In this document: one piece after another, positions 32,329-38,682 of the stretch
Layout of the letters: every line of letters starts with the position of its first letter
How positions within the stretch are numbered: the first letter of the stretch is position 1
NCBI GenBank assembly: GCA_001917815.1
Contig: MNES01000088.1
Location: 1 to 40,419, forward strand
Origin: Chloroflexi bacterium 13_1_40CM_65_17
Lineage (GTDB): Bacteria > Chloroflexota > Dormibacteria > Dormibacterales > Dormibacteraceae
DNA length: 40,419 nucleotides
Reading direction: 5' to 3'
Made by a program: the position numbers and the translations under genes
Notes under the pieces: model-generated
Seen by the model: the letters and a program-made list of their open reading frames with translations, nothing else
Databases searched by the model: none
Told to the model about the DNA's origin: nothing

Positions 32329-32973
32329 ATGAACGGGTTGGCCTGGGCCGCCCTTGCGCTCGCAGCGGTCGCCTCCGGCGGGGATCTGACCTCGATCCTC
32401 CGCCACGACCGGCGCCTCGAATACATGACCAAGCCCGCGGTCGTGGTGCTGCTGATCGCAGCGGCGCTCCTGCTCCACCCGGCCAGCCAGGGCGAGCGTG
32501 CCCTCTTCGTGCTCGCCCTCCTGGCGGGCCTGGCCGGGGACGTGTTCCTGATGCTGCCCGACCGGTTCCTACTGCCCGGAATCGCCGCATTTCTGGCCGG
32601 CCACCTCGCCTACGTGGCCGGCTTCCGGTTCGCCGGCTTCAGCGTCGCCGGACTAATCGTGGGCTTGATCGTCGTGGCGATCACGGCCGCGCTTTTCTTG
32701 GGCCGGGTGCTCGACGCCCTGCTGACCTCGGGCCGGGCCAACCTGAGAAACCCGGTCCTCGCCTACGCAGTCGTGATCTCGCTCATGACCGTGAGCGCCA
32801 CCTCGAGCGGCAATCTCGTCGGGGCCGCGGGTGGCCTACTCTTCTTTTTCTCGGACGTGATCTTCGCCTGGTATCGGTTCGTCAAACCGGTCGCGTCGGG
32901 ACAAGCGGTCAACATCGTCATGTACCAGGCGGGCCAGGCACTGCTCGTGCTCTCGTTGGCGCTGGGAAGCTAA
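32329..32973 (+). CDS. YhhN-family lysoplasmalogenase-like membrane protein
   Basis: The product is 214 residues with about eight hydrophobic helices. The YhhN signature is visible in LAGLAGDVFLMLPDRFLLPGIAAFLAGHLAYVAGF, with GD and GH as candidate catalytic/ligand residues. A later FFFSDVIFAWYRF repeats the pattern. YhhN/TMEM86 proteins hydrolyse lysoplasmalogens in animals; the bacterial substrate is unclear. The stop overlaps the convergent SSB stop as CTAA. Confidence 0.82.
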   Translation: MNGLAWAALALAAVASGGDLTSILRHDRRLEYMTKPAVVVLLIAAALLLHPASQGERALFVLALLAGLAGDVFLMLPDRFLLPGIAAFLAGHLAYVAGFRFAGFSVAGLIVGLIVVAITAALFLGRVLDALLTSGRANLRNPVLAYAVVISLMTVSATSSGNLVGAAGGLLFFFSDVIFAWYRFVKPVASGQAVNIVMYQAGQALLVLSLALGS

Positions 32974-33320
32974 GCGGCCACCTCCTGCGGCTTGGGCCCG
33001 AGCATTTTGAACGAGTCGACAACTACCTCGGTTCCGTACTTCTTCACGCCGGTGGTTGCGTCGTCCCACGAGCTGGTCTGCAGGCGACCTTCCACATACA
33101 GGAGGCGGCCCTTGCGCAGGTACTCCCCGGCAATCTCAGCCTGCCTGCCAAAAACCACCAGGCGGTGGTACTCCGTTTTCTCCTTGGCGTCGCCCGCCTC
33201 GTCCTTGCCCGCATAGGTGTTGGTTGCCAGCCGCAGGTTGGCCACATAGACACCCTTAGGGGTCGCACGAACCTCCGGGTCCGCTGTCAGGTTGCCGACG
33301 AGTATCACCCTGTTGATCAT
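32970..33320 (-). CDS. Single-stranded DNA-binding protein lacking an acidic tail
   Basis: The product is 116 residues, almost entirely one OB fold. It starts INRVILVGNLTADPEVRATPKG and continues with VANLRLATN, YHRLVVFGRQAEIAGEYLRKGRLLYVEGRL and WDDATTGVKKYGTEVVVDSFKMLG. It should bind single-stranded DNA as a tetramer. The C-terminus (PKPQEVAA) lacks the flexible linker and the acidic DDDIPF-type tail that housekeeping SSB uses to recruit partners. It may therefore be a specialised paralogue of the SsbB type. GGAGG lies upstream of the ATG. Confidence 0.88.
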   Translation of the reverse strand: MINRVILVGNLTADPEVRATPKGVYVANLRLATNTYAGKDEAGDAKEKTEYHRLVVFGRQAEIAGEYLRKGRLLYVEGRLQTSSWDDATTGVKKYGTEVVVDSFKMLGPKPQEVAA

Positions 33321-33389
33321 CACGAAACCTCCATCGAATTCTTCAAAACCGAGCGTAGGTCTGCATCGACCAGACGCCAACCCACCTTG

Positions 33390-33884
33390 TTAAGAAGCAA
33401 GCCAGGTGACCGGATCGACCGCATGGCCGTCGACCTGGACCTCGAAGTGCAGATGGGCGCCGGTCGCCAGGCCGGTGGCGCCGACCTCGCCGATCACCTC
33501 GCCAGGCGCCAGATGCGAGCCCGCGACCACGTGCACGCGCAAGAGATGGCAGTAGAGCAAGCGCACGTGCTGGTCCACGACCTCGACCACGTAGATGCCG
33601 GCGCCGCCTGGATCAAATGCCACGTGTGCAGTCCCCGTAGCCGCCGCGTACACAAGAGAGCCGGCCGGCGCAGCCAGGTCTACCCCGGTATGGATGTGGA
33701 GGCCCGGGCAGAACGGATCGAACGGTTCCAACGCGAACGCTGTGCAGCCGAAGGGGAGCGTCTCGATGGCACCCGGCACGATAGACGTGAGTGGGAGCCG
33801 CTGGTAGCCTGCAACACGCGACGCGGTTACCGTCCAGATGATCGCGGCCACCATCGCGATGGCGACCAATCGAATGATGCCCAT
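33390..33884 (-). CDS. M23 family peptidoglycan endopeptidase, membrane anchored
   Basis: The product is 164 residues. One N-terminal hydrophobic helix (IIRLVAIAMVAAIIWTV) acts as an anchor or signal. The M23/lysostaphin-type domain follows: the first zinc ligands are in HIHTGVDLAAPAG (HxGxD) and the second pair in GAHLHFEV (HxH). All catalytic ligands appear intact, so it should cut peptidoglycan cross-links outside the membrane. ATG 33884 lies 4 nt after the upstream gene's stop; GTG 33887 is one codon earlier. Its link to two membrane genes suggests local wall opening for an envelope structure. Confidence 0.87.
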   Translation of the reverse strand: MGIIRLVAIAMVAAIIWTVTASRVAGYQRLPLTSIVPGAIETLPFGCTAFALEPFDPFCPGLHIHTGVDLAAPAGSLVYAAATGTAHVAFDPGGAGIYVVEVVDQHVRLLYCHLLRVHVVAGSHLAPGEVIGEVGATGLATGAHLHFEVQVDGHAVDPVTWLAS

Positions 33885-33888
33885 CACG

Positions 33889-34791
33889 TCAGGCGCGGGC
33901 CACCGCGTGCTCCACCGCATGGAAGCCCTGTTTCAGTGCTGATTCCAGCTTGTGCGCCACCTTCTCAGAGCTGCCCATCGCTCCGGGCACCTTGAACACC
34001 ACCAGCAGGGCCGCCAGCGCGAAGAGGTGATGAACCGATGAATAGCCGCCGCGCTCGAGCGCGAAACCGATTGCGAGCACGAACAGCTGGATTGGCTGCA
34101 TCAGCAGGTTGGTCATGAAGAGCGAGCTCCACTGCTTGGCCAGGTGGTGAGTCTCGGGCAGTGTGAAGAGAAGGCCCGCCAGCGGCGCCGTGATGGCGAG
34201 GACGATGAGGATCGTGTAGCGGATCAAGTAGGCGACCGCGAGCACGTCGTAGCCGACAACGAGAACAGCGGTCGTGAGTATCTGAAGGACGCTTGCTGAC
34301 GGATCGAGTCCGATGTTGTGGAGCCAGTTCTCCCAGTCGGGGAGCATCCCGAAGCCCCGTACCGCATCGCACGCCGCGTTGCTCGCCTGCACCAGCGCCT
34401 GCACTAGCGGGAGGGCGAAGTTGATCAGGACGGCCGACATCATCAGCCGTGGCAGCAGGATGCGTGCCGTGAACTGGCTGCGTAGACCGTGGCCCCACAT
34501 GACCCTGTACGAGGCCCAGATCGCGACCAGCGTGAGCGCGGCGTTGGCGACCAGCTGCACCTTGGGCTCGAACACCTGGATCGTCGAGTTGGCGGTGAAT
34601 TCGCGACCAGTCTCGAAATCGGTGGTGTGGAGGATCAAGCCGAACCAGACCTTGAGCAGCAGCCCGACGCTGTCGTCGAGCAGAGCCTTGACCACGAGGT
34701 TGGGATGCGCGAACGGGAAGAGGACGTTCGCGATGGCGGTGAGCTGAACGACGAGGTTCTGCACATCGCCGAGCAGCTTCTCGATGCCCAT
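33889..34791 (-). CDS. Polytopic membrane protein, TrbL/VirB6-like topology
   Basis: The product is 300 residues with six to seven hydrophobic helices, among them LTLVAIWASYRVMW, LLPRLMMSAVLINFALPLVQAL, VAYLIRYTILIVLAITAPLAGLL and MQPIQLFVLAIGFAL. The segment RYTILIVLAITAPLAGLLFTLPET and the later MQPIQ are reminiscent of TrbL/VirB6 inner-membrane components of type IV secretion systems and related Gram-positive conjugation proteins. This is resemblance by pattern, not proven homology. ATGA joins it to the pilin-like gene upstream. The M23 gene follows within 4 nt, so the three form a tight unit. Confidence 0.62.
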   Translation of the reverse strand: MGIEKLLGDVQNLVVQLTAIANVLFPFAHPNLVVKALLDDSVGLLLKVWFGLILHTTDFETGREFTANSTIQVFEPKVQLVANAALTLVAIWASYRVMWGHGLRSQFTARILLPRLMMSAVLINFALPLVQALVQASNAACDAVRGFGMLPDWENWLHNIGLDPSASVLQILTTAVLVVGYDVLAVAYLIRYTILIVLAITAPLAGLLFTLPETHHLAKQWSSLFMTNLLMQPIQLFVLAIGFALERGGYSSVHHLFALAALLVVFKVPGAMGSSEKVAHKLESALKQGFHAVEHAVARA

Positions 34792-35057
34792 CAGTGGCCG
34801 GTGGACGGCACCGACTTCGTGAGGATGTCGACCAACGAGCCGGCGATCTCCACGCCGATGGTCCCGACGACGATGCGCTGGATCCATTGCTTGGCGGCGA
34901 GTGCAGATTTGGACTCAGCAGCAGTGATCTTCCAGAGAAACGCAAAGATGAAAGCCAGAGCTCCGATCGAACCGACCAGGGCCTGGCCGATGTGAATCCA
35001 GGTCGTGATCAATTCCGTGATCGGCGCGATGTTTGGAGCCGAGTCGAGAAAAAGCAT
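34791..35057 (-). CDS. Small two-TM protein, VirB2/TrbC pilin-like
   Basis: The product is 88 residues with hydrophobic helices at about 20-44 and 62-82 joined by a short basic/polar loop (AAESKSALAAKQWIQR). This two-helix hairpin layout matches VirB2/TrbC-type pilin or small channel subunits, though holin-like or other small membrane proteins share it. CTGGAGG is a good SD before the ATG. The gene is first in the unit with the TrbL-like and M23 genes, as expected for the pilin of a small secretion system. Confidence 0.6.
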   Translation of the reverse strand: MLFLDSAPNIAPITELITTWIHIGQALVGSIGALAFIFAFLWKITAAESKSALAAKQWIQRIVVGTIGVEIAGSLVDILTKSVPSTGH

Positions 35058-35122: not shown

Positions 35123-36277
35123 TTAAGGGCGCCGGGTCCCCACTCGGCTTTCGACGCCATCGAGCAAGATTTCGAGGGCCGAGGCCGATTTTCCAGCCGG
35201 GGCTGGTCGCAACTCGACGTGCGGTTGGGGCTGCGCGGTCGCCTTGTTGTCGAGGGTGAGCTGCACCACACCGCTGTTGATTCGCAGCTCATACCGATCA
35301 GCCGCGCGCGCAGCTCCCTCGCTTTCCCATCTCACATCGGAGACGACAGCTTTGCTCGAGTAGTCATCCAGCTTCAGGCGCACCGCACCGCTGTGGATTT
35401 CGGCGATGACAGCGACGCCCGGCGGCCGGTGCAGGGTTACGCCGACCACGCCACTCGAGATGTCGATGGGGACGACGCCGCGAGGCCGCGGCAAGTAGCA
35501 CTCGACTTTCGCGGCGCCGCTGTCAAGCTTGATATCGCGGACGTCGATGGCCCCCACGTCGAGCACCGTGTTCCAGGTGGCCCCTTGAATCTTGAAACGC
35601 CAGGGGTGGCGCGGGTTCAGCTCGATCTCCCCGAGGCCGACACCACGTAGGCGTCGCACCACGACGGTCTCACCTCGCACGATCGCCGGCGCCGCGGCAC
35701 CCCGCTCGGCCGCGACCCTGATGAGGGTCTCCATCTCGGAACCGGCACGGAGGACCACGCCCCGGGAGCCGGAGTCCACCGCGATCGACGCGGCGGCCCC
35801 AGCCTCGAGGACAGGACCCTCGGCAGGCCTGCCCGCCGTGATCACCTGAACCATCACTGTCAATGCCACCTCGCGTGCCTCGCTGTCACGCAAACCCGCT
35901 GTTTGCAGTTGCCGTTTGAGCTCCGCAAACGTATCGCTCCGTTCCAGTTCCTCCGGGACCTCGAGCAGAATGCGGCCGGCGTCCTTCTGGGCTGAGACCC
36001 GCCGGCTCAGAGCCGAGCTTGCGTCGAGCACAGCGCCGCGCCATCCGGAACGACCGGAGACGGCGGGCACGGTCTCCAGGATCGCCTCCGCCAGGAGCTC
36101 GACGAGCTCGCGGCGGTCGCGGACGTGCCAGTAGAGCGACGCGGCCTTGACCTCCAGCCTGTCCGCCAGTGCCCGCATCGACAGGCCCTCCAGGCCTTCC
36201 TCCTGGATCAGCCCCAGCGCGGCCTGGACGAGTCGATCTCGCGTCAGCCCGCCTTCTTCCTTCCGCGTGTTGGTCAA
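35123..36277 (-). CDS. TetR-family regulator fused to a beta-repeat (DUF4097-like) domain
   Basis: The product is about 384 residues. Residues 10-60 form a TetR HTH (RLVQAALGLIQEEGLEGLSM then ALADRLEVKAASLYWHVRDR), with a helical ligand domain to about 165. The last ~180 residues are unlike any TetR core. They are beta-rich, with the unit S-G-x-(V/A) repeated in LDSGAAKVE, ISSGVVGVTL, IHSGAVRLKL and INSGVVQLTL, as in toast-rack/DUF4097-type adhesin-like domains. It probably represses the divergent methyltransferase-MFS operon. TTG 36277 is chosen; GTG 36349 would run through the operator region. Confidence 0.8.
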   Translation of the reverse strand: MTNTRKEEGGLTRDRLVQAALGLIQEEGLEGLSMRALADRLEVKAASLYWHVRDRRELVELLAEAILETVPAVSGRSGWRGAVLDASSALSRRVSAQKDAGRILLEVPEELERSDTFAELKRQLQTAGLRDSEAREVALTVMVQVITAGRPAEGPVLEAGAAASIAVDSGSRGVVLRAGSEMETLIRVAAERGAAAPAIVRGETVVVRRLRGVGLGEIELNPRHPWRFKIQGATWNTVLDVGAIDVRDIKLDSGAAKVECYLPRPRGVVPIDISSGVVGVTLHRPPGVAVIAEIHSGAVRLKLDDYSSKAVVSDVRWESEGAARAADRYELRINSGVVQLTLDNKATAQPQPHVELRPAPAGKSASALEILLDGVESRVGTRRP

Positions 36278-36306: not shown

Positions 36307-36336
36307 TTGTAATCCTAACACTGTTAGGGATATGAT
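36307..36336 (+). promoter_or_regulatory. Promoter of the methyltransferase-MFS operon
   Basis: TTGTAA (36307-36312) and TATGAT (36331-36336) with an 18-nt spacer make a good sigma-70-type promoter. Transcription should start near 36343, about 40 nt before the ATG at 36384. The spacer contains a perfect operator-like palindrome, and a second copy lies at the expected transcription start. Confidence 0.6.
36314..36328. promoter_or_regulatory. Operator-like perfect palindrome 1
   Basis: CCTAACA-C-TGTTAGG is a perfect 7+1+7 palindrome lying in the promoter spacer. It is centred at 36321, exactly where a TetR dimer would block RNA polymerase. The TetR-fusion gene is divergent and adjacent, making it the likely binder. 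Confidence 0.65.
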
Positions 36337-36348
36337 GGCACAGATTCA

Positions 36349-36363
36349 CCTAACAGCGTTAGC
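36349..36363. promoter_or_regulatory. Operator-like palindrome 2
   Basis: CCTAACA-G-CGTTAGC matches the first palindrome with two changes in the right arm. Its centre (36356) is 35 nt from that of the first site. It overlaps the expected transcription start region, so two TetR dimers could bind cooperatively. Confidence 0.6.
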
Positions 36364-36383: not shown

Positions 36384-37097
36384 ATGAGCGACAGAGTGCA
36401 GACAACAGAGCGTCGGTGGCGATTCAAAGGCCCGGAGATGGAAGGAGCGGTGGCGCGGTGGTATGCAGGCATCCGCAGCTCCGGGAGCCAGATCCAGGAG
36501 TACCGGAGGCAGGCTTTGCAGCTCACCCAAGACTTGGCGGCCGGCGCGGATGTGCTCGAGGTGGCCCCAGGGCCTGGGTACCTCGCCATCGAGATCGCCC
36601 GACTCGGCCGATTTCACGTGACCGGTCTGGACATCAGCCGGTCGTTCGTCCGGATCGCAGGTGAGAACGCCCGGCAGGCGGGGGTGAGCATCGACTTCGT
36701 TCAGGGCGACGCCGCGGTCATGCCCTTCGCATCGGAGTCGTTCGACCTGGTCATCTGCCAGGCCGCGTTCAAGAACTTCGTGTATCCGGCCAGCGCCCTG
36801 GACGAGATGCACAGAGTCCTGCGGCGTGGTGGGACCGCCGTGATCCAGGACATGAGCAGGGATGCCACCCATGCCGACATCGAGCTCGAGGTGAAAAAGA
36901 TGGAGCTCGGAAGGTTGAGCGGCTTCATGACGATGGCGACGCTGGAGATGCTCAAGCGCCGCGCTTATTCAACAGCTCAGTTCGAGCGCCTCGCGGCCGA
37001 AAGCCCATTCGCGTGCAGCGAGATCTGGACGGAAGGGATTGGGCTGGAGATTCGACTGACCAAGCAAGGAGAAAAGACCGATGACCGCGCTGCGTAA
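36384..37097 (+). CDS. Class I SAM-dependent methyltransferase
   Basis: The product is 237 residues. The SAM-binding motif I is VLEVAPGPGYLAIEIARLG near residue 57, followed by VTGLDISRSFVRIA and DAAVMPFASESFDLVICQAAFKNF. It resembles UbiE/small-molecule methyltransferases. It is the first gene behind the TetR-controlled promoter and overlaps the MFS gene by 17 nt. It may modify the compound that the MFS protein exports or one that is sensed by the TetR protein. GGAGGAG lies before the ATG. Confidence 0.85.
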   Translation: MSDRVQTTERRWRFKGPEMEGAVARWYAGIRSSGSQIQEYRRQALQLTQDLAAGADVLEVAPGPGYLAIEIARLGRFHVTGLDISRSFVRIAGENARQAGVSIDFVQGDAAVMPFASESFDLVICQAAFKNFVYPASALDEMHRVLRRGGTAVIQDMSRDATHADIELEVKKMELGRLSGFMTMATLEMLKRRAYSTAQFERLAAESPFACSEIWTEGIGLEIRLTKQGEKTDDRAA

Positions 37098-38682
37098 ACA
37101 CCCGATGGCCGCGCTGGCGGTGCTGGCGCTGGGCCTCTTCATGACCCTGCTCGACCTCACCATCGTCAACGTCGCGATCCCGTCCATCCTGGAAGGTCTG
37201 CACGCGAGCCTCGACCAGGTTCTGTGGGTGCTCAACGCCTACAGCCTCTTTTACGCCGTGCTTCTCATCACGTCGGCGCGGCTGGGCGACATCTACGGCC
37301 CGCGCAACATGTTCGCCGCCGGGGTCGTGATATTCACAGTCGCGTCGGCGTTCAGCGGCCTGGCGCAGGATCCAACTCAGCTCATCGTGTTCCGCGCCGC
37401 GCAGGGTTTCGGTGCTGCGGTCCTTGCCCCCCAGGGCCTGCCGCTCATGATCTCGCTGTTCCCGCCGCAGAAGCGCGGGGGCGTGTTCGCCATCTACGGG
37501 ACGCTTGCCGGCCTCGCCGTCATCGCCGGGCCGACCGTGGGCGGCCTCCTCGTAACCCACTTCGGATGGCGCTCGATTTTCACGCTGAACATTCCGATCG
37601 GCGTCGTCACCTTCGCACTCGCCCTCCTTCTCATCCCCGACCTGCGGCCCGGCCGGCGCCACCGGTTGGACCTGGCCGGCGTGGGGCTTGCCAGCGCGGG
37701 CTTGCTCGCGGTGATCTTCGGCCTCATCGAAGGCCAGCGGTACGACTGGGGGGTAGTGGCGGGAGCGCTCACGATTCCAGAGATCATCGCCGGCGGAGTC
37801 GTGCTGCTCGCGCTCTTCCTCTACTACCAGGCGCGACGCCAGGGAGGCGAGCCGCTGCTCCCATTCGTGGTGTTCAAGGACCGCAACTTCGCGCTGATGT
37901 CGGTCGTGATGGCGGCGATGGGCTTTGCCATCCTCGGCCTCTACCTGCCGCTGACGATCTATCTACAGTCGGTGCTCGGTCTCAGCGCGATCGATGCCGG
38001 ACTCACGATCGCGATTCAGCCGCTGGCGACCATCGTCACGTCCGGAATCGCCGCCTCCCTGTCCCAGAAAGTAAACGGCAAGTACCTGCTGGTCCCGGGT
38101 CTTCTCGCGCTGGCGGTGGGATCGGCCTACATCGACTGGGCCGCGCAAGCGGATTCGAGCCGCTGGGTCTTCGCGCCCGGTCTCATCCTCAGCGGGCTCG
38201 GAATGGGTTTCATCTGGACCCCGGTGTTCAGCATCGGGACACGCGACCTGCCGGCTCACCTGGGTGGGGTGGCGTCGGGCGTCATCAACACCATCCAGGA
38301 GCTGGGGGGCGTGCTCGCAAGCGCCGTGGTGGGTGCATTCCTACAAAACCGGCTTGCTCTGGCGCTGCGCGACCAGGCGGTGGCCGCCTCCGGACAGCTT
38401 CCGGACCAGTACCGCAGCGCCTTCGTTTCAGGCTTCAGCAACGCCGCCCACACCGGTTTCGAGGTCGGCGCGGGACAGTCCGGCGCGAGCCTGCAGCTGC
38501 CCCCGCAGGTCCAGGCGATAGCGCATTACGTCTTCACTCACGGGTTCGTCGACGCGATGCACCCAACCCTGGTTCTACCCATCGCGATTCTCTTGCTGGC
38601 GGCGGTCGCCAGTCTCTTCGTCCGCGCACACGGCGTCGCCGCGACGGCGACCGTACGCGAGGAGCAGTCGGCGGTGGCCTAA
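37081..38682 (+). CDS. MFS transporter, DHA2 (EmrB/QacA) family
   Basis: The product is 533 residues with about 14 hydrophobic helices, the DHA2 topology. The motif LDLTIVNVAIPSI in helix 1 is diagnostic of the family. SARLGDIYGPRNMF corresponds to the helix 2-3 loop motif, and AGPTVGGLLVTHFGWRSIF to motif C. It should export drugs or other amphipathic compounds by proton antiport. It is downstream of, and overlaps, the methyltransferase gene, with the TetR-type repressor divergent. This is a classic inducible efflux layout. Confidence 0.92.
   Translation: MTALRKHPMAALAVLALGLFMTLLDLTIVNVAIPSILEGLHASLDQVLWVLNAYSLFYAVLLITSARLGDIYGPRNMFAAGVVIFTVASAFSGLAQDPTQLIVFRAAQGFGAAVLAPQGLPLMISLFPPQKRGGVFAIYGTLAGLAVIAGPTVGGLLVTHFGWRSIFTLNIPIGVVTFALALLLIPDLRPGRRHRLDLAGVGLASAGLLAVIFGLIEGQRYDWGVVAGALTIPEIIAGGVVLLALFLYYQARRQGGEPLLPFVVFKDRNFALMSVVMAAMGFAILGLYLPLTIYLQSVLGLSAIDAGLTIAIQPLATIVTSGIAASLSQKVNGKYLLVPGLLALAVGSAYIDWAAQADSSRWVFAPGLILSGLGMGFIWTPVFSIGTRDLPAHLGGVASGVINTIQELGGVLASAVVGAFLQNRLALALRDQAVAASGQLPDQYRSAFVSGFSNAAHTGFEVGAGQSGASLQLPPQVQAIAHYVFTHGFVDAMHPTLVLPIAILLLAAVASLFVRAHGVAATATVREEQSAVA

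Follow-up and report, generated by a model that had tools for sequence, protein, structure and literature searches.

Genomic context and domain layout of the regulator

The window analysed here, positions 1-40,419 of contig MNES01000088.1 of Chloroflexi bacterium 13_1_40CM_65_17, carries a regulator gene on the minus strand and, divergent from it, the two genes of a presumed target operon. The intergenic region between them contains a candidate promoter and two operator-like palindromes. The features are as follows.

35123..36277 (minus): TetR-Toastrack regulator gene, 384 aa, TTG start; same architecture at 30 loci in 29 other genomes
35813..36277 (minus): TetR DNA-binding domain and helical core, residues 1-155 (alpha1 to ~alpha8), by TetR_N match and structure alignment
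35213..35806 (minus): Toastrack beta domain, residues ~158-355, by profile match to PDB 4QRK
35126..35182 (minus): C-terminal segment, SALEILLDGVESRV and the residues after it, 366-384, conserved in the alignment
36315..36327 (no strand): operator-like palindrome CTAACACTGTTAG, in the spacer of the divergent promoter
36350..36362 (no strand): operator-like palindrome CTAACAGCGTTAG, 35 bp from CTAACACTGTTAG
36307..36336 (plus): sigma70-like promoter TTGTAA-18-TATGAT of the divergent operon, its spacer holding CTAACACTGTTAG
36384..37097 (plus): class I SAM-dependent methyltransferase, first gene of the presumed target operon (Pfam Methyltransf_11, 9e-24)
37081..38682 (plus): DHA2/EmrB-type MFS efflux transporter, second gene, overlapping the methyltransferase gene (MFS_1, 4e-56; TIGR00711 above cut-off)

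The regulator frame runs on the minus strand from a TTG at 36277 to a stop codon at 35123-35125, and a TTG, GTG or ATG start codon lies at, or a few codons from, the same alignment position in nearly all relatives. These limits are exactly those of the first-pass annotation, which did not state the strand. Pfam TetR_N (PF00440) matched residues 17-60 above the cut-off (E 2.5e-9), and with a profile of 24 relatives, residues ~10 to ~155 aligned with solved TetR and ActR structures and no further. The helical core up to ~155 matches the tetracycline repressor/ActR clade. The regulator gave no Pfam TetR_C match, and the C-terminal helical ligand and dimerisation domain is not complete to alpha10. 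The TetR HTH and helical core recognised in the first-pass annotation were indeed present, and the ordinary TetR C-terminal domain that it had named as a refutation was not found. Four S-G-x-(V/A) units are located at residues 253, 275, 296 and 335, in agreement with the at least four counted earlier, and this number was reached in one of 10,000 shuffles of residues 158-358. A membrane or signal segment is absent from the regulator (19-residue hydropathy maximum of 1.12), as had been reported, and the beta domain starts at ~158, close to the residue 165 given before.

Beyond a variable linker, the SALEILLDGVESRV segment is kept at the C-terminus in the alignment of relatives. As read from these alignments, the Toastrack domain and the short C-terminal segment stand in for the TetR helices past alpha8 (alpha9-alpha10). 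The final residues starting with SALEILLDGVESRV (window 35126-35182, minus), which are presumably helical, may form a separate docking or dimerisation helix. The main alternative to a signal-receiving Toastrack is that the domain is an oligomerisation module only, which would replace the lost TetR alpha8/alpha10 dimer interface or bridge dimers on the two operators, with a small-molecule inducer bound in the helical core. This explanation, which we consider unlikely, would account for the missing helices, because the TetR core stops where alpha9-alpha10 would start.

Identity of the beta domain

A mixed profile comprising TetR, MarR, TMEM175 and LiaF-like proteins matched 4QRK over nearly the whole domain length (E 4.7e-12). 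Because this profile contains LiaF-like rows, the search was repeated with TetR-fused rows only, and 4QRK was then the sole match (E 7.3e-4). 4OPW, another solved Toastrack structure, was absent from the profile matches. In the paper defining the Toastrack superfamily (DUF4097, DUF2154 and DUF2807), 4QRK is one of two example structures (PMC11237479). Pfam models searched against the window protein (P0001) yielded no Toastrack model at E up to 1. The relatives of the beta domain in the phylum include proteins with LiaI-LiaF-like membrane segments, showing sub-threshold Toast_rack_N and LiaF-like_C matches and a LiaF-TM match. Predicted structures were all-beta in the domain region but unreliable, with a pLDDT of 39 from a two-row alignment (P0001 and L001) and of 45 for the domain alone, and Foldseek with the domain-alone model (pLDDT 45) returned no match at E <= 0.001. 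On the basis of the profiles, the beta domain of the regulator is assigned to the Toastrack (DUF4097/DUF2154/DUF2807) superfamily. The fusion to a toast-rack/DUF4097-like domain suggested in the first reading of the sequence is therefore real, given the 4QRK profile match and its conservation in relatives. The literature contradicts the accompanying statement that an extracytoplasmic position is the norm for such beta-repeat domains: Toastracks are argued to be intracellular and membrane-proximal, and able to work through fused or associated HTH domains (PMC11237479). In enterococci, the antimicrobial response is held back by the Toastrack-bearing proteins LiaX and LiaF (PMC10269926).

Conservation and spread of the fusion

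Thirty loci, spread over 29 other genomes of the class, carry the uninterrupted fusion with 38-84% identity, and full-length matches were also detected in two further, more distant families of the phylum (G265 and G148). In an even draw of 400 phylum genomes, 17 had a full-length match, one of them carrying two. An assembly error, named in the first-pass annotation as grounds for rejecting the fusion, is excluded by this recurrence in the class and in the two more distant genomes. More generally, the joining of two genes by chimeric assembly or frameshift, for which we found no supporting point, is refuted by the relatives and has next to no probability, since the fusion is unbroken in the 29 other genomes over the whole identity range and its C-terminal segment is conserved.

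In a tree of the Toastrack domain, 17 of 18 TetR-fused copies formed one supported clade, with L096 apart, and a supported branch (98/94) split the regulator-fused Toastracks from the LiaF type. The latter separation bears on a special case of our best explanation, in which the Toastrack would hold the repressor to partners in the membrane, such as a LiaF-like Toastrack protein of the same genome, so that membrane stress would pull the repressor off DNA. Such a protein is indeed encoded in this genome (G000:C98), and Toastracks have been proposed as sub-membrane docking platforms (PMC11237479). However, regulator Toastracks group apart from the LiaF type and a partner gene was not noticed at the locus, where none of PspA, PspC, LiaI-LiaF-TM or a two-component partner was seen among the neighbouring genes examined. 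We regard tethering as improbable, and more so than the oligomerisation module.

No relatives of the regulator were found in viral contigs. A plasmid search with P0001 gave no match, and one with a MarR-Toastrack query retrieved MarR parts only, never 80% of the query. In addition, three regulator-group Toastracks (L086, L087 and L090) lie in short frames with no recognised HTH or membrane segment, representing either stand-alone proteins or broken genes. The same domain is also found at the C-terminus of a potassium channel protein of the TMEM175 type (L057:3986-5293, minus; PF06736, 9e-26).

Divergent operon and candidate operators

In the window, the gene next after the MFS transporter gene encodes DNA ligase D. 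Downstream of the regulator and on the same strand are genes for an SSB, an M23 peptidase and a TrbL-like membrane protein (window 32970-35057, minus), a set resembling parts of a conjugation or secretion cluster. The divergent operon includes an exporter in 28 of the 33 TetR-Toastrack loci (the window, its 30 relatives, L148 and L149); of these exporters, 17 are MFS transporters (that of L031 being a remnant only) and 11 are ABC systems (ATPase and/or ABC-2 permease). The divergent genes comprise either a methyltransferase or DUF998 gene together with an MFS pump, or a DrrAB-like ABC pump, and the DUF998 membrane protein replaces or joins the methyltransferase in several loci. The divergent operon of one locus (L029) is cut by the contig end. 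In the remaining four (L024, L025, L033 and L037), the methyltransferase is kept and an exporter was not detected. These four loci speak against the efflux-repressor reading, and the methyltransferase may itself be a main target.

The two palindromes conform to a 13-bp consensus, CTAACRNYGTTAG. With at most one mismatch allowed, 24 of 31 loci have two CTAACNNNGTTAG sites ahead of the regulator gene and the other 7 have one, with no other site in the ~0.4 Mb of the 31 loci; 50 sites were observed versus 0.002 per set of shuffled upstream regions. Exact CTAACNNNGTTAG is found only at the two promoter sites in the 2.5-Mb assembly, which is 84% complete. Degenerate palindrome pairs, 35 and 34 bp apart, are also present in the distant loci L148 and L149. 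The sole promoter-like match in the intergenic region is TTGTAA-18-TATGAT on the plus strand, and the TTGCAA/TTGTAA adjoining the first palindrome is conserved in relatives. Such a layout, with its putative operators, is expected of a repressor that acts locally, on its own gene and on the operon divergent from it. Where two CTAACNNNGTTAG sites are paired, their spacing is nearly fixed at 33-37 bp, which would suit a Toastrack that bridges dimers, but the seven relatives with one site only argue against such an oligomerisation module.

The same domain in MarR regulators

A phylum-wide survey further revealed the same Toastrack behind MarR DNA-binding domains, without membrane segments, in many genomes, several of which have more than one copy. 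Among the 13 MarR-Toastrack loci for which a wider context was examined, seven have exporter genes divergent from the regulator. The operon starts in two of them (L159 and L162) with a methyltransferase 58-60% identical to that of the window, and the L161 pump shares 61% identity with the MFS transporter of the window. A search covering loci within L150-L164 gave a candidate MarR-Toastrack operator, CTTAGTNACTAAG (at most three mismatches), which lies no more than 80 bp upstream of 9 of the 13 genes and is rare elsewhere there. The TetR and MarR fusions have the Toastrack and the type of target gene in common and differ in their DNA-binding part, from which we infer that the Toastrack supplies the input of these operons. 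Moreover, MarR regulators dimerise unaided and yet have this domain next to similar operons, which an oligomerisation module leaves unexplained. The first-pass annotation had put forward oligomerisation or the sensing of a large ligand as the role of the repeat domain, and either may apply, but the MarR parallel favours a shared input role over TetR-specific dimerisation.

Proposed mechanism of regulation

From the computed architecture and its conservation, the Toastrack homology, the conserved putative operators, the exporter context and the MarR parallel, we consider it likely that the window protein is a one-component, tetR/tetA-like autoregulated efflux repressor with the Toastrack as its input. 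By analogy with known families and from the promoter geometry, repression, autoregulation and dimer binding would proceed as follows. The TetR HTH would bind both palindromes between the divergent genes, one dimer on each, and the bound repressor would hold down its own gene as well as the methyltransferase/exporter operon. We hypothesize that the Toastrack, in the place of alpha9-alpha10, is the input domain that receives the signal through a ligand or partner. Speculatively, the partner on its face might be an antimicrobial compound, or else a protein of the stressed envelope or one close to the membrane. Binding of the partner would change the helical core and release the DNA, so that the modifying enzyme and the pump would be made. 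A small-molecule pocket could also exist in the truncated helical core, in which case the Toastrack need not be the sensor.

Beyond this locus, the Toastrack may serve in the cytoplasm as a portable input domain, placed on at least two unrelated DNA-binding folds (TetR and MarR) and giving one-component drug-export regulators that read an envelope or antimicrobial signal directly with no Lia-type two-component relay; we put this forward tentatively, as possible rather than probable. The part that Toastracks play in envelope stress is predicted and difficult to test, because the proteins known so far depend on membranes and relays. In a soluble repressor that has a defined, conserved pair of putative operators and its presumed target operon next to it, the question can be tested directly. 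In addition, TetR and MarR have each been fused to the domain next to similar target genes, a natural comparison for separating the role of the Toastrack from that of the DNA-binding part.

Comparison with known systems

In the papers searched for TetR or MarR proteins with DUF4097/Toastrack, we found no such fusion described, in line with the first-pass annotation, which knew of no described TetR of this design. The main text of the 2024 Toastrack paper does not include TetR or MarR, and foresees fused HTH domains in general (PMC11237479). As a described design, the TetR-Toastrack fusion therefore appears to be new, whereas the Toastrack itself is known mainly from membrane-stress proteins.

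Like members of the TetR/ActR clade (tetR/tetA, actII), the window protein has an HTH and a helical core and is divergent from an exporter, with two palindromic operator candidates. The tetR/tetA-like arrangement is present in that repressor and exporter genes diverge with putative operators between them, and the tetO half-site CTATCA resembles the CTAAC of the window palindromes. In contrast to that clade, the window protein lacks the helices past alpha8 and a Pfam TetR_C domain, and has the Toastrack and C-terminal segment instead. With LiaF, LiaG, LiaX/YvlB and VraT (DUF4097/DUF2154/DUF2807), it shares the same beta domain by profile to 4QRK. Those proteins are linked to membrane segments, PspC, SHOCT-like or HAAS domains, and two-component or PadR regulators (PMC11237479), whereas the window Toastrack is fused straight to a soluble TetR regulator. 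The MarR-Toastrack proteins of the same phylum (L058, L059, L062, L094 and others) resemble it in having the same domain, no membrane segment and, in 7 of 13 loci, divergent exporters, but differ in their winged-helix MarR DNA-binding domain and in their candidate operator, CTTAGTNACTAAG.
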